A DNA stretch of 37,026 bases, from the IMG/VR virus record IMGVR_UViG_3300009168_000079, positions 1 through 37,026 of that record. One strand, given 5' to 3'. Origin of the DNA: a virus. Position 1 is the first letter of the stretch. Each line of letters starts with the position of its first letter. This document shows positions 3,670 through 36,821 of this stretch, one piece after another. Both the position numbers and the translations under genes were made by a program. The notes beneath the pieces are model-generated. The model did not search any database and had not been told where the DNA came from. It worked only from the letters and a program-made list of their open reading frames with translations.

Positions 3670-6201
3670 CTACAGGAACAGCAGGCGGAACTCGCCATTG
3701 ACAAGGCTCAGCGCCGCACCGCTGTTCTGGAACACGACGACCGTCAGCTGGTCGCCCGGCGTGACCGGGAACTCCGCGACCCCGTGCTGCTGCACGTTGC
3801 CACTCGGATTGTCGACGGCCGCCATGGCGTGCTTGGCTCCTGTCTCGGCGCCGTTCAGCATGACCCGCATCATGCGGGTGCCGGTCGCATTCTGGTTCCA
3901 TGTGATACGGCAGAATATCCGCACCCCGGTCGCCCATACCGGCACCGTCACGGCGGTGCCCGCGGTGGAGAATACCTGGTCGGGATCGCGCGCCTCGGAC
4001 CAGTTCAGCGTGTGCAGCACCCCGCTGGCGATGGACACCGAACCGACTGTCAGCAGCGCCCACTTCTGGGTGATCCACCAGTTGGTCGACAGCGTCAGGT
4101 GGTATCGCGCCTCGGTCGGCAAAGGGAAGAACAGGTCGCCGGCCTCGACCACGCCGATGCGGTTGGCGCCGGCCAGCAGCAGCACCGCGCGCGCCCCGTT
4201 GTAGTAGCTGTTCGGGCCGACCACGCACTCGAGCGAGGTGTCCTCGGCGACGAAGCCGATGTAGGTGGACGTCGTGTCGGCCGCCACGAAGTGGTTGTTG
4301 TGGACGCGCACGCCGCGGGTTCCCCTGCCGACCCTGACGCCGGTGACGTTGGCCCCGGTGACGAAGCTGCGCATGTCGTTGTCATGGATCGCGCCGACGC
4401 TGCCGCCGTACAGCTCGATGAACTGGAAGAACTGCTCCGTGGAGTCGGGATTCTGGAACAGGTTGCAGTCGCCGACGAACAGCTCGGTGAAGATGTCGGC
4501 GTAGACCGTGCCGTGATAGCAGTTGGCGTGGCAGTGGATCATGCCGATCTGCATGCCGATGTCGGTCGAGCGCCCCTCGGCCCACACCGCATGGCCGACA
4601 TTGAGGAAGGTCATGTTGGAAAAGCTGATGCCCTCGACCGTGTCCCAGTAGGTGGCGACCATGCGGTTGTAGTAGCCGAACTCCGCGCCTGTGCAGCGCA
4701 GGTCGGATGACGTCATCTTGCCCGTCAAAAAAATTCCGATGTCGCAGATGGTGTTGTCGGTGGGGATGTTGGGGATCTGGTTGGCCCCGACGCCGAAGAT
4801 GTAGCCGTTGATCTGCGACGCCTGCCAGCCGGACAGCCAGATGGCGTTGCGGAATCCGCAGTTGCCGTTGACGCCGCGGATGACGGCGCCGGCCTCCATC
4901 AGGAACGACGGGAACTGGCGGCCGACGACGAAGCCGGAATCGTACCAGCCGAGCGCGAAGGCGCGGCCCTGGTTGCGCTGCGTCGTCAGGATCTGAACGC
5001 CGGTGCCGACGATCACCCGCGAGAAGGCGGGCAGCGTGCCGACAGTCGGGTTGATGCGATAGCACTTGACGTCGACGGTCTGGCCGGCGGTCGCGGCGGT
5101 GTTGAAGATGATGGTCAGCGTCGATACGTTGTGCGCCGCCCTGTAGGTTCGGGGATCCTTGAAGACGCCATTGACGTAAACCTCGATGAAGCTCGAGGTG
5201 TACGGGTCGGAATGGGCGAACGAGACCTGGCTGGCCACGGCGACGAAGCTGTAGGTGAGCAGGTCGATCTGGCAGCCCTGGAACAGATTGCCGGTGCCGG
5301 TGTAGGTGATGATGCCGTTGCCGGCCAGGTGCATGCCGCCCTGCGGCACCGTGATGGTGCTGGTGATCTTGATGTTCAGCCCGTCGATCCACACCACGCG
5401 GCCGTCGGCGGCGTCGAGCATGGTCTGGAACTCGGCGGTGTCGTCGGCGACGCCGTCGCCCGTCACGTCGTACCATTTCGGGTTGATCAGGTGGCTGACG
5501 TCGGGCGTGCCGCCACTGCCGGCCGAGACCTCGACCCACTGGCCGCTGTCGACGTCGACATAGAACATGTGCAGCGCACCGGTGTCGCTCTCCCACCACA
5601 GATCGCCGTCCTGCCACGGCTGCGGTGGCGGCCCGTCGCCGGTCCAGTGCTGGTTGGTATTGCCGACGCCGTCGCCGACGCCACCGCCGCCCCCGCCCGC
5701 CGGGTACATGGTCGGCTGCCCGTCATTGTCGAAGCCGAGCACCTTGCCGGCGCGTCCCGCCCGGTTGGGGATCCTGTTGAGCGGATGCACGAAGTCGTTG
5801 ACCGCCATGCCAAGCGTGCGCTCCTGCACGTTGATCTCGGTCTGCTGGATCATGGCGGCCTGGTTGTCGAAGGTGTCGTTGAGCGTGGCGACCGGGAACA
5901 CGCCGGAGGTCGGCAGGTCGGAGGTGCGCGCGATCGGCATGTCGCGGAAGATGATGACATGGTCGTTGACCGTGCGGCCGGGCGCACCGAAGGTGATCGA
6001 GCCGCCGGCGCTGGTGCCGACGCCCGTCGTCGAATAGTGCATGCTGTCGAGCGGCGGCGCGTCGAACACGCACAGCACCTCGTTGACGTAGACCTTGAGA
6101 TGCGTGTCCGCGGTCCACGCGAACGGAACCGTGAACACGGTCTGTCCCTGCGTTGCCACATGGTGGACCCGCGGGCTGACATCATTGACGACGATGCTCA
6201 T
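3670..6201 (-). CDS. Tailspike: T7-type fibre N-terminus plus right-handed beta-helix
   Basis: This 843-residue protein starts with a T7 gp17-like attachment domain (about 5-90; VFTVPFAWTADTHLKVYVN is diagnostic) and a short coiled segment (about 105-135). A Gly-rich hinge (169-174) and a WQDGDLWWESDTGALHMFYV domain (about 196-226) follow. The pectate-lyase-type entry motif DVTGDGVADDTAEFQ (about 245-259) opens a long parallel beta-helix. A second copy-like segment resembling the N-terminal fold is embedded at about 316-383 (FIEVYVNGVFKDP). Such spikes usually bind and often degrade capsular or O-antigen polysaccharide; no catalytic residues can be assigned here. ATG at 6201 overlaps the preceding stop (ATGA). 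Confidence 0.88.
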   Translation of the reverse strand: MSIVVNDVSPRVHHVATQGQTVFTVPFAWTADTHLKVYVNEVLCVFDAPPLDSMHYSTTGVGTSAGGSITFGAPGRTVNDHVIIFRDMPIARTSDLPTSGVFPVATLNDTFDNQAAMIQQTEINVQERTLGMAVNDFVHPLNRIPNRAGRAGKVLGFDNDGQPTMYPAGGGGGGVGDGVGNTNQHWTGDGPPPQPWQDGDLWWESDTGALHMFYVDVDSGQWVEVSAGSGGTPDVSHLINPKWYDVTGDGVADDTAEFQTMLDAADGRVVWIDGLNIKITSTITVPQGGMHLAGNGIITYTGTGNLFQGCQIDLLTYSFVAVASQVSFAHSDPYTSSFIEVYVNGVFKDPRTYRAAHNVSTLTIIFNTAATAGQTVDVKCYRINPTVGTLPAFSRVIVGTGVQILTTQRNQGRAFALGWYDSGFVVGRQFPSFLMEAGAVIRGVNGNCGFRNAIWLSGWQASQINGYIFGVGANQIPNIPTDNTICDIGIFLTGKMTSSDLRCTGAEFGYYNRMVATYWDTVEGISFSNMTFLNVGHAVWAEGRSTDIGMQIGMIHCHANCYHGTVYADIFTELFVGDCNLFQNPDSTEQFFQFIELYGGSVGAIHDNDMRSFVTGANVTGVRVGRGTRGVRVHNNHFVAADTTSTYIGFVAEDTSLECVVGPNSYYNGARAVLLLAGANRIGVVEAGDLFFPLPTEARYHLTLSTNWWITQKWALLTVGSVSIASGVLHTLNWSEARDPDQVFSTAGTAVTVPVWATGVRIFCRITWNQNATGTRMMRVMLNGAETGAKHAMAAVDNPSGNVQQHGVAEFPVTPGDQLTVVVFQNSGAALSLVNGEFRLLFL

Positions 6202-26094: not shown

Positions 26095-26619
26095 CTAACG
26101 GGTCTCCTGCTCCCCCTCCCAAGGGAAGATGACGGCTTCTTCGAACTCCGGAGGGCTTTTTCCCGTGTGGGGGACAGTGACTATCTCAGTCACTGCGCTT
26201 TTCGAGACCCCCTCGGTGCTCAGAACCAGCTCGACAGTCAGTGACTGATCACTGCCTGCCTCGCGTCGCTCAGGAGGCAAATACCCTGCACGATCAAGGA
26301 GATCGCGGGCAGCTTCGAGCTTCACATAATCGGAGCGAGCGTGGTCAACCAAACGGATCACCTGTGCGAGAGCAGGCACCGCGGACAGCCCGATGGCTGT
26401 CAGCGTTTCCCGCACGATCGCTTGCTGCACCATGGGGTTTCGCACCAGGTTCGACCCGACTGTCGCTGCCGAGTTGCTGGCATAGCCAGCTTTCTCGGCT
26501 GCTTCCGTCTGGTTGCCTCCGTTCGCCAACAGCTCCTTGACGAAGCGCTGCTGCTTCGCTGTCAGCTGCCGCTTCGGTTCAGCGAACACGTCCTTGTGCA
26601 GCTGGGGGAGGGCTCGCAT
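26095..26619 (-). CDS. terS: Terminase small subunit
   Basis: This 174-residue protein has an N-terminal helix-turn-helix of the Terminase_2 type: LTAKQQRFVKELLANGGNQ, then TEAAEKAGYASNSAATVGSNLVRNP (about 19-62). A middle oligomerisation region and an acidic C-terminal tail (FEEAVIFPWEGEQE) follow. It recognises the packaging site and delivers it to the large subunit. It is the first clear gene of the leftward arm. No good ribosome site precedes ATG 26619. The 3' half contains two inverted repeats built on CAGTGACT. Confidence 0.88.
   Translation of the reverse strand: MRALPQLHKDVFAEPKRQLTAKQQRFVKELLANGGNQTEAAEKAGYASNSAATVGSNLVRNPMVQQAIVRETLTAIGLSAVPALAQVIRLVDHARSDYVKLEAARDLLDRAGYLPPERREAGSDQSLTVELVLSTEGVSKSAVTEIVTVPHTGKSPPEFEEAVIFPWEGEQETR
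26175..26254. repeat. Two CAGTGACT-based inverted repeats inside the small terminase gene
   Basis: At 26175-26195, CAGTGACT and AGTCACTG form a perfect eight-base inverted repeat around a five-base loop. At 26239-26254, CAGTGA and TCACTG pair around four bases. The same GTGACT core recurs at 26793, 26806 and 27652 around the control region. These could be protein binding or packaging-recognition sites. Confidence 0.6.
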
Positions 26620-26653: not shown

Positions 26654-26815
26654 TCAAACGACTGTGCAAGGCAGGGGGGTAGTAGGGGGGGTTATGCACA
26701 GCCGTGTCAAGGCATGGGATTCCAACTGTGGCGCCGGAACGCGGGTGTTAACCTCGTTCAGGTTAATTCTCGCCGTGGATTCGACGCACTCGGTGACTGG
26801 ATCCAGTGACTGCAT
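26654..26815 (-). CDS. Possible 53-residue leader ORF
   Basis: This frame begins at ATG 26815, in a context that is an inverted imperfect copy of the leader and start of the rightward gene at 27094 (GGGAGTTAC ... CGAAATG). The ribosome site is 12 bases away, four more than in the other copy. The product (start QSLDPVTECVESTARINL, end TPPTTPLPCTVV) has no recognisable fold and its last part is read from a G/C homopolymer region. It may be a leader peptide or non-coding. Confidence 0.3.
   Translation of the reverse strand: MQSLDPVTECVESTARINLNEVNTRVPAPQLESHALTRLCITPPTTPLPCTVV
26674..26691 (+). other. Paired long G runs in the divergent control region
   Basis: Six G, TAGTA, then seven G lie on the plus strand just upstream of the small terminase gene. 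Each run is long enough to supply two G tracts, so a quadruplex is possible but less canonical than the one at 26040-26067. Confidence 0.55.
26748..26766. promoter_or_regulatory. Perfect 7-base inverted repeat (operator-like) in the control region
   Basis: TTAACCT and AGGTTAA form a perfect dyad around a five-base centre, in the most AT-rich part of the divergent region. It has the size and symmetry of a repressor operator. No clear -35/-10 pair surrounds it, so its promoter association is unproven. Confidence 0.5.
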
Positions 26816-27096
26816 TTCGAAGTGTAACTCCCTTCGGTTGCCGCACCTGCTGTCTCGGTCCGCCATCGCCTGACACGGCTGGCTCAGGATGCAACGGCTG
26901 GCGCCGTTCCCCTCCTCCCTGCAGACGGTGGCAGTGGTGGTCCTGCGGGGTGCGGTGGGCAGCCGTTCGGTCCTCCGCCTGGCGGCGTCGTCCCTCTCTC
27001 GAATCCGTCTTCAGTCGTCGGTGCATCCTGCTCCAGCCATGTCTTGCGGGCGGGACCGGACAGCAGGTCCGGCAACCAAACGGAGTTACCGAAATG
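26813..27096. repeat. Inverted pair of leader sequences (divergent control region)
   Basis: The left arm (about 26813-26893) is an imperfect inverted copy of the right arm (about 27022-27096). Shared blocks, read in the direction of each transcript, are TGCATCCTG, CCAGCC, ACAGCAGGT, GCGGCAACC/CCGGCAACC, GGAGTTAC and the start ATG. In the right arm CCGGAC/GTCCGG can form a hairpin around AGCAG. About 130 bases without coding sequence separate the arms. Both arms probably encode structured 5' leaders of divergent transcripts. No sigma-70 promoter is evident between them. Confidence 0.75.
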
Positions 27097-27585
27097 ACTG
27101 AGATCCAGAAGTTCACCAAGTACCTCGAAGGCATCGCAGCGATCTACTTCGAAGCATACGAGCACACCGACCGCGACGGCGTCGTCACCGAGCGCAACCG
27201 CAAGGGCTTCGTGCAGGACAAGCTCCTGAACGGCATCTGCTACCAGCTGGCGAACGCCATCGACTACTCGTCCAACAAGACGCTGCCGCAGGCGAAGGCC
27301 GCCGTGCAGCGGACCATGCGGGCTCACGACGGCACCGAGATCTCGGAGCTGAACCTGCAGCGGTCGGTCGAGTGGGTGCAGCGCCTCAACGAGCAGCTCG
27401 CCTTCGACCAGGCGATGCTCGACGCGGCCAAGCGGGTGTACACCAAGGCCACCGGCAAGGACTTCGCCTACGGCCGCACGGGACGCCCGAACGAGGACGT
27501 CGCCGAGACGCCGGCGATGGCGGCGGCCAAGGCGCTGGGCATCGTCACCAACGTGGCGCCTGGCCACAACAGCAACGCCGCGTGA
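27094..27585 (+). CDS. Unknown early protein, single-gene transcription unit
   Basis: This 163-residue protein begins TEIQKFTKYLEGIAAIYFEA. It is helical throughout, with an acidic middle (ISELNLQRSVEWVQRLNEQ) and a C-terminal segment FAYGRTGRPNEDVAETP followed by an Ala-rich tail. ATG at 27094 has GGAG eight bases upstream. The frame is open far upstream, but that part is the leader repeat and is excluded. It is the first rightward gene, with a long structured leader and its own strong terminator. This suggests high, separately controlled early expression, as for a host-takeover or DNA-binding protein. I do not recognise it. Confidence 0.8.
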   Translation: MTEIQKFTKYLEGIAAIYFEAYEHTDRDGVVTERNRKGFVQDKLLNGICYQLANAIDYSSNKTLPQAKAAVQRTMRAHDGTEISELNLQRSVEWVQRLNEQLAFDQAMLDAAKRVYTKATGKDFAYGRTGRPNEDVAETPAMAAAKALGIVTNVAPGHNSNAA

Positions 27586-27592
27586 GCGGCAC

Positions 27593-27622
27593 GGGGGAGG
27601 GCTTCGGCTCTCCCCTTTTTTT
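27593..27622 (+). terminator. Rho-independent terminator after the first rightward gene
   Basis: A nine-base-pair stem (27594-27602 with 27607-27615, one wobble) closed by a C-TTCG-G tetraloop is followed by seven T. It starts eight bases after the stop codon. This is the strongest terminator in the genome and isolates the 163-residue gene from the operon beyond. Confidence 0.93.
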
Positions 27623-27796
27623 GGGCTCCGCCAGGGGTGGAGGTGACGGCGGTGACTGGTTGGTCACTGCCCTCACTGCAGTAGAGGCGGAGCCTCAGTC
27701 ACGGTGCCCCGATCGGCGAGGGCTGGGGCCAGGGCTGGACGGGAAGGGGGTGGGTGAATGGGAGGGGGGAGGCGGAGCGGCAGGCGAGGCGGGCCG
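27623..27796. other. Non-coding stretch with an inverted repeat
   Basis: No convincing gene is present. GGCTCCGCC (27624-27632) and GGCGGAGCC (27686-27694) form a nine-base inverted repeat. It encloses a smaller one, GTGAC (27652-27656) with GTCAC (27663-27667). The rest is purine-rich. It lies between a terminator and a promoter candidate. Confidence 0.55.
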
Positions 27797-27829
27797 CTGA
27801 AAATTTCAACGGGCTTTCTAAAATTTCAA
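27797..27829 (+). promoter_or_regulatory. AT-rich sigma-70-like promoter candidate with a 20-base-period repeat
   Basis: CTGAAA (27797-27802) and TAAAAT (27819-27824) are separated by 16 bases and match the -35 and -10 consensus at 4/6 and 5/6. The ten-mer AAAATTTCAA occurs at 27800 and 27820, exactly 20 bases apart, as expected for a protein binding one face of the helix. This is the most AT-rich spot near the start of the rightward operon. A transcript would start near 27831. Confidence 0.5.
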
Positions 27830-27840
27830 ATCAATCCGTG

Positions 27841-27966
27841 CCTGCGTCGGGCGTCGATGCACCGGACCACGCCCTGCGTTCAGTGCAAGGCTGCCCTTCG
27901 GCTCGCTTCGCTCGGCCTTGCACTGCCCGCTTAGGGCGCGGTCGATCGGTGCACGCCCGTCGCAGG
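27841..27966. other. 126-base imperfect hairpin (structured leader or palindromic element)
   Basis: Successive paired blocks are 841-853 with 954-966 (12 of 13), 858-864 with 947-953 (7), 865-868 with 940-943 (4), 871-875 with 933-937 (5), 876-878 with 928-930 (3), and 881-891 with 915-925 (11 perfect), each number plus 27000. That gives about 42 pairs with a 23-base loop. It lies between the promoter candidate and the ribosome site at 27982, so it would be the 5' end of the operon mRNA. Confidence 0.82.
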
Positions 27967-27994
27967 CGTGATGGATTCAACAAGGAGAACGGCG

Positions 27995-28270
27995 ATGAAA
28001 GTGAAGGACGGATTGGCCCTGCTGCAGCTGGTCGAGCAGCAGCGTGTGCAGATCGGCGAGATGCAGGCCCAGCTCGAACGGGCAGAGGAGGATCTTCAGC
28101 TGATAGCCAGCGCGCTGGTCAAGACAGCCGAGTTCGACGAGTGGCTGATGGACCAGGATCTGAGCTGTGCCCACCAGCGCAAGCCATCGGACGACGTGAA
28201 GCGGGTGCAGGTTGAAGGCGCGACGGACCTGACGCTGGCCGTCGCCTATGCAGGGAGAGCGCAGTCATGA
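27995..28270 (+). CDS. Small coiled-coil protein, first gene of the long rightward operon
   Basis: This 91-residue protein has an N-terminal heptad-patterned helix (GLALLQLVEQQRVQIGEMQ, continuing to about 40) and a more polar C-terminal half. ATG 27995 has AAGGAG seven bases upstream; the ATG at 27968 lies at the foot of the hairpin without such a site. It follows the 126-base hairpin, so its translation may be affected by that structure. The stop overlaps the next ATG. Family unknown. Confidence 0.75.
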   Translation: MKVKDGLALLQLVEQQRVQIGEMQAQLERAEEDLQLIASALVKTAEFDEWLMDQDLSCAHQRKPSDDVKRVQVEGATDLTLAVAYAGRAQS

Positions 28271-28485
28271 GCGACTTCGAACCCGGCGAGAGCCACGACA
28301 TGGTCCGCATGCGGGGCATGGGACTGCGCATCATGAGGGAACAGGACCTCGAGGATCAGATCTTCGATGTGGATCCGCAGCGTGCGGCACGAGCGGTCGA
28401 CTGGCTGGCATCGCAGCGCATGCAGGAACAGGAAGTGAAGCGCTTCAAGCGGTTGAGGAGGATCAAATGCCTTCAGCTCGCATGA
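28267..28485 (+). CDS. Small unknown protein
   Basis: This 72-residue protein, starting SDFEPGESHDMVRMRG, has an acidic N-terminus and a strongly basic C-terminus (QEVKRFKRLRRIKCLQ). ATG overlaps the preceding stop. The charge pattern hints at nucleic-acid binding; no family is recognised. Its 3' end overlaps the next start by 19 bases. Confidence 0.7.
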   Translation: MSDFEPGESHDMVRMRGMGLRIMREQDLEDQIFDVDPQRAARAVDWLASQRMQEQEVKRFKRLRRIKCLQLA

Positions 28486-28780: not shown

Positions 28781-28995
28781 TGGCTGACAAGCCGGTATTG
28801 AAAGCAGCGCTGCATGCGCTGGCCACCATCGATGCGATCTACCAGTGGGTCGACAGGGTCGACGCCGCCGGCGGAGCGACCAGCCTGAGCGGCATCGCCG
28901 CGTGCAACGCCATGCTCAAGAGCCTGCGGCAGAACAGGCCGCGCATCGAGGCGGACATCATCGCACCGCTGCGCAAGGCAATGAAGGATGGCTGA
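28780..28995 (+). CDS. Small helical protein of unknown function
   Basis: This 71-residue protein, starting ADKPVLKAALHALATIDAI, consists of two or three helices (about 5-27, 36-52 and 56-68). AGGGAGG lies about nine bases before ATG 28780. It overlaps the next gene by eight bases. No family is recognised. Confidence 0.7.
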   Translation: MADKPVLKAALHALATIDAIYQWVDRVDAAGGATSLSGIAACNAMLKSLRQNRPRIEADIIAPLRKAMKDG

Positions 28996-29311
28996 GTTCG
29001 ACGAGCTCGAGTGGATTCGAGACCAGCTGCAGATAGACGTGGATGACTGGTCCGAGGTGATGGACACGATGGTGCAGAGATGCGACAAGTGTCGCAGTGT
29101 TGCACCATCAAGGAGTATCACCGTGATCCAGACCTATGCGCAGCAGCTCAAGGCCATGGCCGAGGCCGAGAAGGTGGACCTGCTCGATGCCTGTCTGCAT
29201 GCGGGCGTGCCACGCTCCACCTATTACCGCACCTTCTCGCAAGGCAAGTCGATCACGCAATCGACGGCCGAGCAGATAGCGAAGGCGATCCAGGAACTCG
29301 GCATTCGCTGA
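28988..29311 (+). CDS. Helix-turn-helix regulator with an internal start
   Basis: The full frame encodes 107 residues. The C-terminal 62 form a helix-turn-helix protein (LKAMAEAEKVDLLDACLHAG, PRSTYYRTFSQGKS, then a recognition-like helix to IQELGIR), resembling small Cro-like or AlpA-like phage regulators. The N-terminal 45 residues are acidic and contain CDKC. In-frame GTG at 29123 has AAGGAG seven bases upstream, and immediately before that lies the nested dyad at 29071-29106. Two products, long and short, are possible, with the short HTH form likely autoregulated. It is the only visible DNA-binding regulator near the start of this operon. Confidence 0.75.
   Translation: MAEFDELEWIRDQLQIDVDDWSEVMDTMVQRCDKCRSVAPSRSITVIQTYAQQLKAMAEAEKVDLLDACLHAGVPRSTYYRTFSQGKSITQSTAEQIAKAIQELGIR
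29071..29106. promoter_or_regulatory. Symmetric nested dyad before the internal HTH start
   Basis: GGTGCA-N4-TGCGACA-N2-TGTCGCA-N4-TGCACC: a 36-base structure with two perfectly matched, co-centred inverted repeats (6 and 7 bases). The ribosome site AAGGAG begins four bases later. It could be an operator for the HTH protein or an RNA hairpin controlling its internal start. Confidence 0.8.
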
Positions 29312-33888: not shown

Positions 33889-34064
33889 TCGGCCCGCTGT
33901 ACCTGGGCGACGGCGTCTACGCCACCACTGACGGCTACTCGATCGAGCTCAGGCTCAACAGCCACAACGATCAGGTCGTCGTCTACCTCGAGCCGAGCGT
34001 GATGGATGCGCTGGTCCTCTACTACGAGCAGCTCAAGAAGGCACACAAGGAGGCTGGCCGATGA
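33885..34064 (+). CDS. Small beta-helix-beta protein of unknown function
   Basis: This 59-residue protein, starting with GTG, carries GPLYLGDGVYATTDGYSIEL followed by VVVYLEPSVMDALVLYY. This is a pattern I recognise as a recurrent small phage protein of unknown role. The GTG overlaps the previous stop, and the stop overlaps the next ATG. Confidence 0.78.
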   Translation: MIGPLYLGDGVYATTDGYSIELRLNSHNDQVVVYLEPSVMDALVLYYEQLKKAHKEAGR

Positions 34065-34150
34065 GCCCCATGATGTCGTTCGCCCTATTCATCGGCTTTG
34101 TAACGGCCGTTGGCATCACAGCCATAATGGTCGTTGGAGTGCTGCCATGA
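34061..34150 (+). CDS. 29-residue membrane peptide
   Basis: This frame is almost entirely one TM helix (FALFIGFVTAVGITAIMVVG). It overlaps both neighbours in the ATGA arrangement, which supports real translation despite its size. It lies directly before the antirestriction gene. Function unknown. Confidence 0.62.
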   Translation: MSPMMSFALFIGFVTAVGITAIMVVGVLP

Positions 34151-34974
34151 ACCAGCTGATCGAGCGCACGCTCGAAGACCTGGTCGAGCGGATCGAGAAG
34201 GGTACTGGCGACTGGATCCGTGACTGGGTTTCGGGGGGCGTGCCACGGAACTACACGACCAGTCGCCAATATCATGGAGTGAACATTCTCCTGCTGTGGG
34301 CAGCGAAGGAGAGGTCCGGCTACCCATCGAACGAGTGGGCAACTTACAAACAGTGGGCTGCGTCGGGCTTGCAAGTCAAGGCCGGCGAGAAGTCGAGCAC
34401 GATCTTCATCAGCAAGGATGCGCTGAAGAAGGGCGGCGATCGCGACAACCCCGACGACCACTACCGCCTGCTGCGCTGCGCCTTCGTGTTCAATGCGGCG
34501 CAGTTACTTGTCCCGCCGGACAGGGTGACAGAAGCTGTCACCTCGGTGCAACGTGACGAGGCATGCGAACGGCTGATCACAGCCACCGGCGCCGCGATCG
34601 CCGAGGGAGAGCAGCCGTTGTACAGGCCAGCGGCCGACACGATCCTCTGCCCTCCTCCCGAGAAGTTCGTGTCGGTCGAGGCATACTACGCCACGCTGTT
34701 CCACGAGCTGGTGCACTGGACCGGGCACAAGACCCGGCTCGCCCGCATCGAAACCTACGCCGACGAGGAGCTGGTCGCCGAGTTCGGGGCGGCGTTCGCC
34801 TGTGCCGAGCTACATGTAACTTACAGTAGCGACAACTTCGCAGCCTACCTCCGTGGTTGGCTGTCGAAGACCAAGGACAGGGGCGCCGCGCTGATGAAGG
34901 CGGCATCGCTCGCCTCGAAGGCGCACGAGTACATCATGTCCCACCAACAGAAGGAGGACGCCATCGCAGCATGA
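34147..34974 (+). CDS. ArdC-like antirestriction protein with zincin domain
   Basis: This 275-residue protein begins with an ArdC-type single-strand DNA-binding domain (IEKGTGDWIRDW, YHGVNILLLW, WATYKQWAASGLQVKAGEKSS; about 17-84). It ends with a zinc metallopeptidase domain containing HELVHWTGH (186-194) and the supporting EELVAEFGAAF (207-217). In plasmids ArdC protects incoming DNA from restriction and coats single strands. In this phage it could defend injected DNA or replicating single strands. ATG overlaps the preceding stop. There are multiple candidate dyads in the gene, but none is convincing as a regulator. Confidence 0.88.
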   Translation: MNQLIERTLEDLVERIEKGTGDWIRDWVSGGVPRNYTTSRQYHGVNILLLWAAKERSGYPSNEWATYKQWAASGLQVKAGEKSSTIFISKDALKKGGDRDNPDDHYRLLRCAFVFNAAQLLVPPDRVTEAVTSVQRDEACERLITATGAAIAEGEQPLYRPAADTILCPPPEKFVSVEAYYATLFHELVHWTGHKTRLARIETYADEELVAEFGAAFACAELHVTYSSDNFAAYLRGWLSKTKDRGAALMKAASLASKAHEYIMSHQQKEDAIAA

Positions 34975-35007
34975 CCGCAAGGTCGAACGACTACTGCATT
35001 TCGATAG

Positions 35008-35033
35008 CGGGGAGGTTGGAGCCTCCCCGTTTT
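35008..35033 (+). terminator. Rho-independent terminator or attenuator before the ParB-like gene
   Basis: CGGGGAGG (35008-35015) and CCTCCCCG (35022-35029) form a perfect eight-base stem around six bases, followed by TTTTCATTT. It lies between the ArdC-like stop and the ParB-like start and should reduce ParB-like expression from the long operon. Confidence 0.82.
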
Positions 35034-35057
35034 CATTTCAAGAAGGAGACGATCGCA

Positions 35058-36821
35058 ATGATCAACGTTCCACTGAAGTCACTGATCTTCGGTGGCGAGA
35101 TCGACAGTCGCACCGAGCAGACTGACATCACGTCGCTGACCAAATCCATCGAGGCACTCGGCCTCATCCTGCCGCTGTCGGTCATGCAGGTCGGTGACAA
35201 GTACCGTGTCATCGACGGCAACCGCCGTCTCGCCGCCCTCAAGATCGTGCACAAGGGGAAGAAGAATGTCGAGGTGCCGGTGCATCTCCAGGATGCTGAC
35301 ATTGACCAGTCGACAGCAAGAGCTCTGTCTCTCGCAGCCAACATCGAGCGGCTGCCGCTGCACCCGGCTGACCAGTACCAGGCCTTTGCGAAGATTGCCG
35401 CGGACGGCAAGGCGCTGGCTGAGATCGCCTCCATCTTCGGCATATCGGAAAGGGCGGTGAAGCAGCGCATGGCGCTGGGCTCGCTGCGCTTCGAGGTGCT
35501 CGACGCCTACCGCGCCGGCAGCCTGAGCCCTAAGCTGGCGCAGTTGATGACCCGCATCACGCCGGATCAGCAGTGGGAGGTCATGCTCACCGGCGAGAGC
35601 GACTGGCAGATGATCAACCGCATCCAGGCCATGACGAACACCGAGGCGCTGGCGCCGACCTGCGGGCTGGCCCGCTATATCACACGGGAAACCTACGAGG
35701 CGGCGGGCGGCACCTTCGTCACCGACCTGTTCGTCGAGGAGGGCAACGAGCTGTGGGCCGATCCGCAGCTGGCCAGTGCACTCGCCGACCAGATGCTAGT
35801 CGATGTGCAGCTCAAGACAGTCGACGAGGGCTGGCAGTTCTTCGAGCGCACCGACGAGTGGGTCGGGCAGAACTACATCCTCGAGGATCCGGCCGGCGAG
35901 CCGGTGCTGCTGGACGAGACGCAGATCGCCCGCGCCAACCTGCTGCGCAGCCAACTCGACGAGTTCGAGAAACTGTGGGCCGACGAGGAACGCGACGTAA
36001 CCGACGACGAGCGGCGTGAGATGAACGCTGTCGAGCACGAGCTGAACGGTCTCGAGGACGAGGTCCGTAGCTGGACCGACGAGCAGAAGGGCAGGCTCGG
36101 CGTGGTGGTCGACGCCCACTACACCGTCCACTATGGGGCGAAGCACAGGGAGGGGGCGAAGTCGGATAGTCAGTTATCATCCGTCGCTGACAAAGAGGAC
36201 AAGGCGCAGGCCCAATCCACCGCCGTGATGATGGAGCTGGACGCGCACCTGACCAACGGCGTGCGTGGTGCCTTGGTCGATCGGCCTGACATCGCGGTCC
36301 GCCTGCTCGCCCTCACCTTCCTGTCCGATTACTTCCTGCTCGACGACAAGCTGCGCCCCTTGCATGCGGGCGTCGGCATTCGCTGCGACTTCAGCGGCAA
36401 CGTGCTGCCGGCCAGCGAGTACGGGCTGCAGGACATACTCGATATCGCCAAGGCATCGGGACTTCTGAAGGCAAAAACTTTCGAGGCCAAGATGGTGTGC
36501 ACGACGAAGATGAGCGACCACGATATCAAGAAGATCATCACGTTCTTCGTGGCCCGCTCGATGATGAAGCAGCACCGCGGCAGCGACCTGGTCCTCTACC
36601 TCGACAAGGTCAAGGCACTGAAGATCCGGGACCACTTCACGCCGACGGTCGACAACCTGTTCGGTCGGCTGACCAAGGCGCAGCTGCAGCTGGTGATGAA
36701 GGAGGCCGGGCTGGCCGACGACATCTCCGACATGAAGAAGAAGGAGGCAGCCGAGTTCGTCGCTGCGCGGCTGCCCGCCGACTGGATCCCCGAGGCGATC
36801 AGGCCGACGAAGCCGACCTGA
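35058..36821 (+). CDS. Large ParB-like protein
   Basis: This 587-residue protein has the ParB N-terminal fold: SLTKSIEALGLILPLSVMQ, then YRVIDGNRRLAALK, where GNRR (54-57) matches the CTP-binding box of ParB/Spo0J. NIERLPLHPADQYQAF and a helix-turn-helix at about 118-139 (ALAEIASIFGISERAVKQRM) follow. The remaining 430 residues are unusual, being acidic and helical with a charged coil (about 300-345), and are not found in ordinary 300-residue ParB. ATG 35058 has AAGGAG at good spacing; an in-frame ATG at 34971 would require reading through the terminator. No ParA is present. The stop overlaps the endolysin 3' end on the opposite strand. Confidence 0.85.
   Translation: MINVPLKSLIFGGEIDSRTEQTDITSLTKSIEALGLILPLSVMQVGDKYRVIDGNRRLAALKIVHKGKKNVEVPVHLQDADIDQSTARALSLAANIERLPLHPADQYQAFAKIAADGKALAEIASIFGISERAVKQRMALGSLRFEVLDAYRAGSLSPKLAQLMTRITPDQQWEVMLTGESDWQMINRIQAMTNTEALAPTCGLARYITRETYEAAGGTFVTDLFVEEGNELWADPQLASALADQMLVDVQLKTVDEGWQFFERTDEWVGQNYILEDPAGEPVLLDETQIARANLLRSQLDEFEKLWADEERDVTDDERREMNAVEHELNGLEDEVRSWTDEQKGRLGVVVDAHYTVHYGAKHREGAKSDSQLSSVADKEDKAQAQSTAVMMELDAHLTNGVRGALVDRPDIAVRLLALTFLSDYFLLDDKLRPLHAGVGIRCDFSGNVLPASEYGLQDILDIAKASGLLKAKTFEAKMVCTTKMSDHDIKKIITFFVARSMMKQHRGSDLVLYLDKVKALKIRDHFTPTVDNLFGRLTKAQLQLVMKEAGLADDISDMKKKEAAEFVAARLPADWIPEAIRPTKPT

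Follow-up and report, generated by a model that had tools for sequence, protein, structure and literature searches.

Two long hairpins directly ahead of early genes in a podovirus-type virus record, and gene-length inverted repeats in its relatives

The stretch analysed here (the window) is a virus record of 37,026 nucleotides, of podovirus type judging by its gene content. A leftward set of genes comprises the structural genes, the portal and the terminases, and the rightward early genes encode RusA-like, RecE-like, Erf-like, SSB, replication-initiation-like, ArdC-like and ParB-like products. The neighbour of the ArdC-like anti-restriction protein is a large ParB-like protein that weakly matches sigma-70 region 4 (window 34006-36821). 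Among relatives with full context, contig 3300045042_000094 is nearest, its terL being 75% identical to that of the window. The junction reads terS (leftward), H1, pre, a terminator, a G-rich block, a promoter-like site, H2, e1 and e2, so that two long hairpins, H1 and H2, each lie directly ahead of early genes. The features are as follows:

26095-26619, minus strand: terS, terminase small subunit (Pfam Terminase_2, E 7.7e-14)
26704-26709, minus strand: TTGACA of a weak leftward promoter-like site (TTGACA..CCTACT), ~91 bp upstream of terS, a consensus match only
26824-27089, plus strand: H1, 61 Watson-Crick pairs (-157 kcal/mol, z -8.45)
27094-27585, plus strand: pre, the first early gene (163 aa), with its true start at 27094
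27593-27622, plus strand: intrinsic terminator of pre, dividing H1-pre from H2-e1
27720-27769, plus strand: G-rich block of two adjacent G-quadruplex motifs, before the promoter-like site and H2
27797-27824, plus strand: sigma-70-like promoter-like site CTGAAA-16-TAAAAT, a consensus match only
27800-27809 and 27820-27829, plus strand: direct repeat AAAATTTCAA, copies 20 bp apart
27829-27977, plus strand: H2 in full extent, 48 Watson-Crick pairs, 3 G:T and 2 A:C, apical loop at about 27892-27914
27982-27987, plus strand: AAGGAG, ribosome site of e1 by sequence
27995-28270, plus strand: e1 (91 aa, no known family), ATG at 27995
28267-28485, plus strand: e2, the next gene after e1

A sequence-only reading of this DNA had described a long imperfect stem at 27841-27966. 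The stem is there and is somewhat longer than described, the limits of H2 coming from a stem alignment in which G:T and A:C mismatches receive equal scores. Folded as RNA, 27841-27966 has an MFE of -84.5 kcal/mol and holds up well against shuffled controls (z -8.31, with none of 200 shuffles equally good); the same segment gives z -8.36 as DNA and z -9.69 on the opposite strand. The stem score of H2 is 42, against maxima of 26-34 in mono-shuffled windows, and ties second among the inverted repeats of the window. H2 is also the strongest local fold of the window in a 150-nt scan, and occurs there as a single copy. It reached no family's gathering cut-off in Rfam 15, and BLAST against phage and plasmid records returned no match covering it. 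A more permissive stem scoring was abandoned for the stricter one used here, as it yielded long GC-driven alignments even in shuffles, and nesting depth failed to discriminate hairpins. Elsewhere in the window, an inverted repeat at 5433-5689 equals the score of H2 with 24 paired bases and arms ~205 nt apart, and sits within a large leftward gene (3670-6201). A near-perfect 42-nt hairpin at window 29068-29109 (GATGGTGCA..TGCACCATC, inner TGCGACA/TGTCGCA) lies within the ORF 28988-29311.

The stem had been placed between a promoter candidate and a ribosome site, and the spacing is indeed tight: the last base of the promoter-like site, 27824, is 5 nt ahead of the stem, and the first base of AAGGAG, 27982, is 5 nt past it. 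One sigma-70-like site was found upstream of H2 where 0.1 were expected in shuffles, and the transcription start predicted from it coincides with the base of H2. The AAAATTTCAA repeat forms an AT-rich island that overlaps the promoter-like site. As for H2 standing at the head of the main rightward operon, it does occupy the leader of e1, but the rightward genes begin one gene earlier, at 27094. The same reading, correct about the presence of H2, overlooked a similar but stronger hairpin at 26824-27089. This is H1, which lies directly before pre and pairs the ribosome site of that gene within its base. A longer ORF from 26806 is a misreading of the start of pre, the H1 palindrome happening to be open in that frame. 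Compensated pairs in H1 number 14 in comparison with L006 and 12 with L004, against 3.4 and 2.5 expected (pairs times the squared substitution rate, divided by 3, with sites assumed independent).

The record of H2 itself is more mixed. Two related contigs, L082 and L083, carry a homologue (73% identical) after e1 and directly before the next gene; the e1 homologue thus lies upstream of the hairpin there and downstream of it in the window. In L082 the gene directly following the hairpin is in the position of e2 and resembles it by eye, unpaired by BLAST. In L006, e1 comes directly after the terminator of pre and is followed by a comparable G-rich block at the contig end. Because the arrangements in the window, in L082/L083 and in L006 differ, the block with H2 and e1 have swapped order between lineages. 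Random breakage of the stem in relatives had been named as an argument against function, and the outcome is divided: among 52 comparable Watson-Crick pairs between the window and L082, 34 are unchanged, one is compensated (1.7 expected, hence no excess) and 17 are no longer Watson-Crick, yet the fold of the L082 homologue remains more stable than those of shuffles (z -3.5 and -4.4, one value per strand). A further contig, L045, has a hairpin with the apical motif of H2, other stem letters and a similar layout (z -7.3) directly before its first early gene, which has at most weak similarity to pre (31% over 35 residues, E 0.1). The apical motif CAAGGC..TCGCTNCGCTC.GCCTTG does not mark a widespread element, as the unrelated hairpins of L384 and L385 that contain it are not above shuffles (z -0.8 and -1.8). 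Selection on H2 itself is likely, though unproven; its support is moderate because the compensatory changes in the L082/L083 homologue stay within chance.

Much longer structures occupy the position of H1, beside terS, in relatives. The survey covered relatives whose sequence continues for 1.3 kb or more past terS (48 loci in 31 sequence clusters); in about a dozen of the clusters the best inverted repeat is clearly above shuffles, and those repeats nearly always span the first early gene or occupy the space separating it from terS. In L006, L004, L018, L051, L031, L071, L070 and L043 the repeat contains 317-480 Watson-Crick pairs. One arm covers 80-96% of the first early gene (for L006 this was read from the gene start); the other repeats it in inverted orientation, with reading frames that in most lineages are broken or carry internal stops. 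The window lineage is without the outer arms present in L006 and L004. Three of the repeats are placed as follows:

L006, 409-1716: gene-length repeat in the interval between terS and the first early gene
L004, 3472-4787: gene-length repeat in the same interval
L388, 3324-4032: inverted repeat of about 260 pairs in the cultured Pelagibacter phage EXVC031P Hodr (OQ414635), spanning the divergent early/late junction

Close relatives in three independent lineages show 33 (3.9 expected), 31 (3.3), 12 (1.5) and 11 (0.3) compensated pairs, at least 8-fold over expectation in the three lineages, where the expectations treat sites as independent and related loci inside one cluster are not. Mismatches are as dense near compensated pairs as elsewhere (0.29 vs 0.26, 0.33 vs 0.26 and 0.32 vs 0.21), which makes tract-wise gene conversion between the arms unlikely; this scatter of compensated pairs among mismatches therefore favours selection on pairing. 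Divergent paralogous genes do not explain the arms either, with the second arm broken in most lineages and no full-length similarity in GC-rich lineages, and an assembly artefact was rejected on account of the mismatches and bulges throughout the arms and of the repeat in the cultured Hodr. The paired gene has dN/dS values of 0.51-0.78, with one distant pair at 1.55 and another pair protein-identical. Such low synonymous relative to amino-acid change is as expected if the nucleotides are constrained, and a fast-evolving protein would look alike.

The mismatches of these long repeats are not symmetric between strands. On the early strand A:C exceeds G:T in 10 of 11 independent long-repeat clusters (for example 52:9, 27:1, 23:1 and 41:10), and read on the leftward strand the long repeats favour G:U, U:U and G:G, with C:C rare, which is the spectrum of a tolerated duplex. 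The A+C content of the early genes is 0.50-0.56, and a mutational skew large enough for the A:C excess is therefore not suggested. The pattern suggests that, in the long forms, selection acts on a leftward RNA or on leftward single-stranded DNA. The difference in MFE between the strands was set aside as strand evidence, since ordinary coding stretches differ similarly. TTGACA-type leftward sites are found 64-91 bp upstream of terS in L071, L074, L051, L018, L070, L043 and L006, and no such site is among the top-scoring ones in L028 and L004; the site is probably the late promoter.

What could H2 do? The reading we prefer, to which we would give slightly less than an even chance, is that H2, encoded by the phage, acts in cis as a leader hairpin of the early operon and is probably a site for RNase III or a determinant of mRNA stability. 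Transcription from the site at 27797-27824 would start at the base of the stem, and the early mRNA would thus begin as a closed duplex. The duplex might shield the 5' end from decay, or RNase III might cut the stem, and H2 would thereby set the stability and translation of e1 and of the genes after it. Related phages would take the principle to an extreme, with hairpins enclosing the whole first early gene. RNase III cleavage or 5'-end protection would be the most economical use of the stem. The fold of H2, the promoter-like and ribosome sites that flank it, the homologues placed before genes, the hairpin of L045, the covariation of H1 and the long hairpins near terS in about a dozen of the 31 clusters all speak for such a leader, and of the roles first proposed for the hairpin, a phage-encoded structured RNA or RNase-processing element retains its support, as do its non-coding nature and leader position. 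Against it stand the lack of a compensation excess in H2 and the A:C excess of the long relatives, which favours folding of the opposite strand and therefore fits a purely rightward leader poorly. A role at the 5' end cannot be general either, because the L082 homologue is intercistronic and has no visible promoter before it.

The selected molecule might instead lie on the opposite strand, as an RNA that runs leftward, folds on itself and is antisense to the first early gene or genes; we consider this possible but unlikely. Its full form would then be seen in the long repeats of relatives and short forms in H1 and H2; the full form might serve as a 5' leader for the late operon or as an RNA neutralising its own antisense sequence. 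The A:C excess would correspond to G:U pairs on such an RNA, and the base skew of the early genes is too small to account for it. H2, however, is unbiased (3 G:T, 2 A:C), no consistent leftward promoter is found to the right of the repeats, strand-biased mutation is possible, and the same bias would equally favour single-stranded DNA of that strand.

A DNA-level element is more doubtful: a replication start, packaging or recombination site that forms a cruciform or single-strand hairpin and is perhaps a substrate of the RusA-like resolvase. The fold is equally strong as DNA, terS lies nearby, and RusA, RecE-like, Erf-like, SSB and replication-initiation-like proteins are among the early products. 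Nonetheless, a DNA site has no need to adjoin ribosome sites, as these stems do, or to extend across a coding gene, as they do in relatives, and the mismatches of the long forms are strand-asymmetric. A telRL-type protelomerase site in particular is very unlikely: PF16684 is absent from the seven genomes or records searched, several of them fragments, and in place of a near-perfect palindrome there are mismatches and bulges throughout.

Less probable again is that H2 is a displaced and decaying relic of a longer inverted repeat with no present function. The missing outer arms, the different sides of e1 on which the hairpin lies in the window and in L082, and the compensation at chance level would all suit a relic, but shuffles fold far worse than either homologue, and a relic would not need the regularity that the window copy shows. 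Least credible is a captured host repeat, as was also first suggested, or a miniature mobile palindrome: the position relative to e1 has changed and the apical motif recurs in a few unrelated viral contigs, but two of those hairpins fold no better than shuffles, the motif occurs in only 1 of 369 and 0 of 385 genomes of two bacterial classes (which may not be the host's), the same as a reversed-pattern control, H2 is a single copy without a covering BLAST match, and matches of the stem base in the genome collection are scattered over phyla, as by chance.

Several known systems invite comparison. The hairpins of the lambda N leader and of T7 early mRNAs are cut by RNase III. Like them, H1 and H2 are, by sequence, long stems in an early-mRNA leader that adjoin or cover the ribosome site of the first genes, and the leader is untranslated if the predicted transcription start is right. 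The stems here are longer and share no common sequence with those of lambda and T7, their cleavage by RNase III is a prediction, and in relatives they take in an entire gene, whose inverted, non-coding copy lies upstream. Stem-loops of the ompA type stabilise mRNAs from the 5' terminus; the stem of H2 likewise begins close to the predicted transcription start, whereas its homologue in L082 is intercistronic. Bacterial palindromic repeats such as REP/REPIN (PMC3733652) are, like H2, GC-rich imperfect palindromes in intergenic space; H2 is far longer, single copy and unrelated to the repeats of the two bacterial classes tested, and a host repeat is unlikely. GOLLD and ROOL are large phage-associated structured RNAs, ornate and multi-branched (PMC12286853). 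The hairpins described here resemble them as large non-coding RNA structures occurring in phages, but they are single rods without an Rfam match.

Taken across the lineage, it is possible, if somewhat short of probable, that these phages share one element: the first early gene beside terS would form one arm of a giant hairpin and a non-coding inverted copy the other, with complementarity kept by selection while the sequence, and even the encoded protein, change, the antisense strand probably being the one selected and H1 and H2 being short forms. We know of no comparable phage element, and the literature consulted, which included few subscription journals, holds no report of these repeats. If true, a selected duplex holding a whole coding gene would be a new viral way to regulate or protect RNA, and long double-stranded RNA would be present in bacteria during infection. 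A shorter version of the repeat, that of Hodr, occurs in a cultured phage of Pelagibacter, an abundant ocean bacterium.
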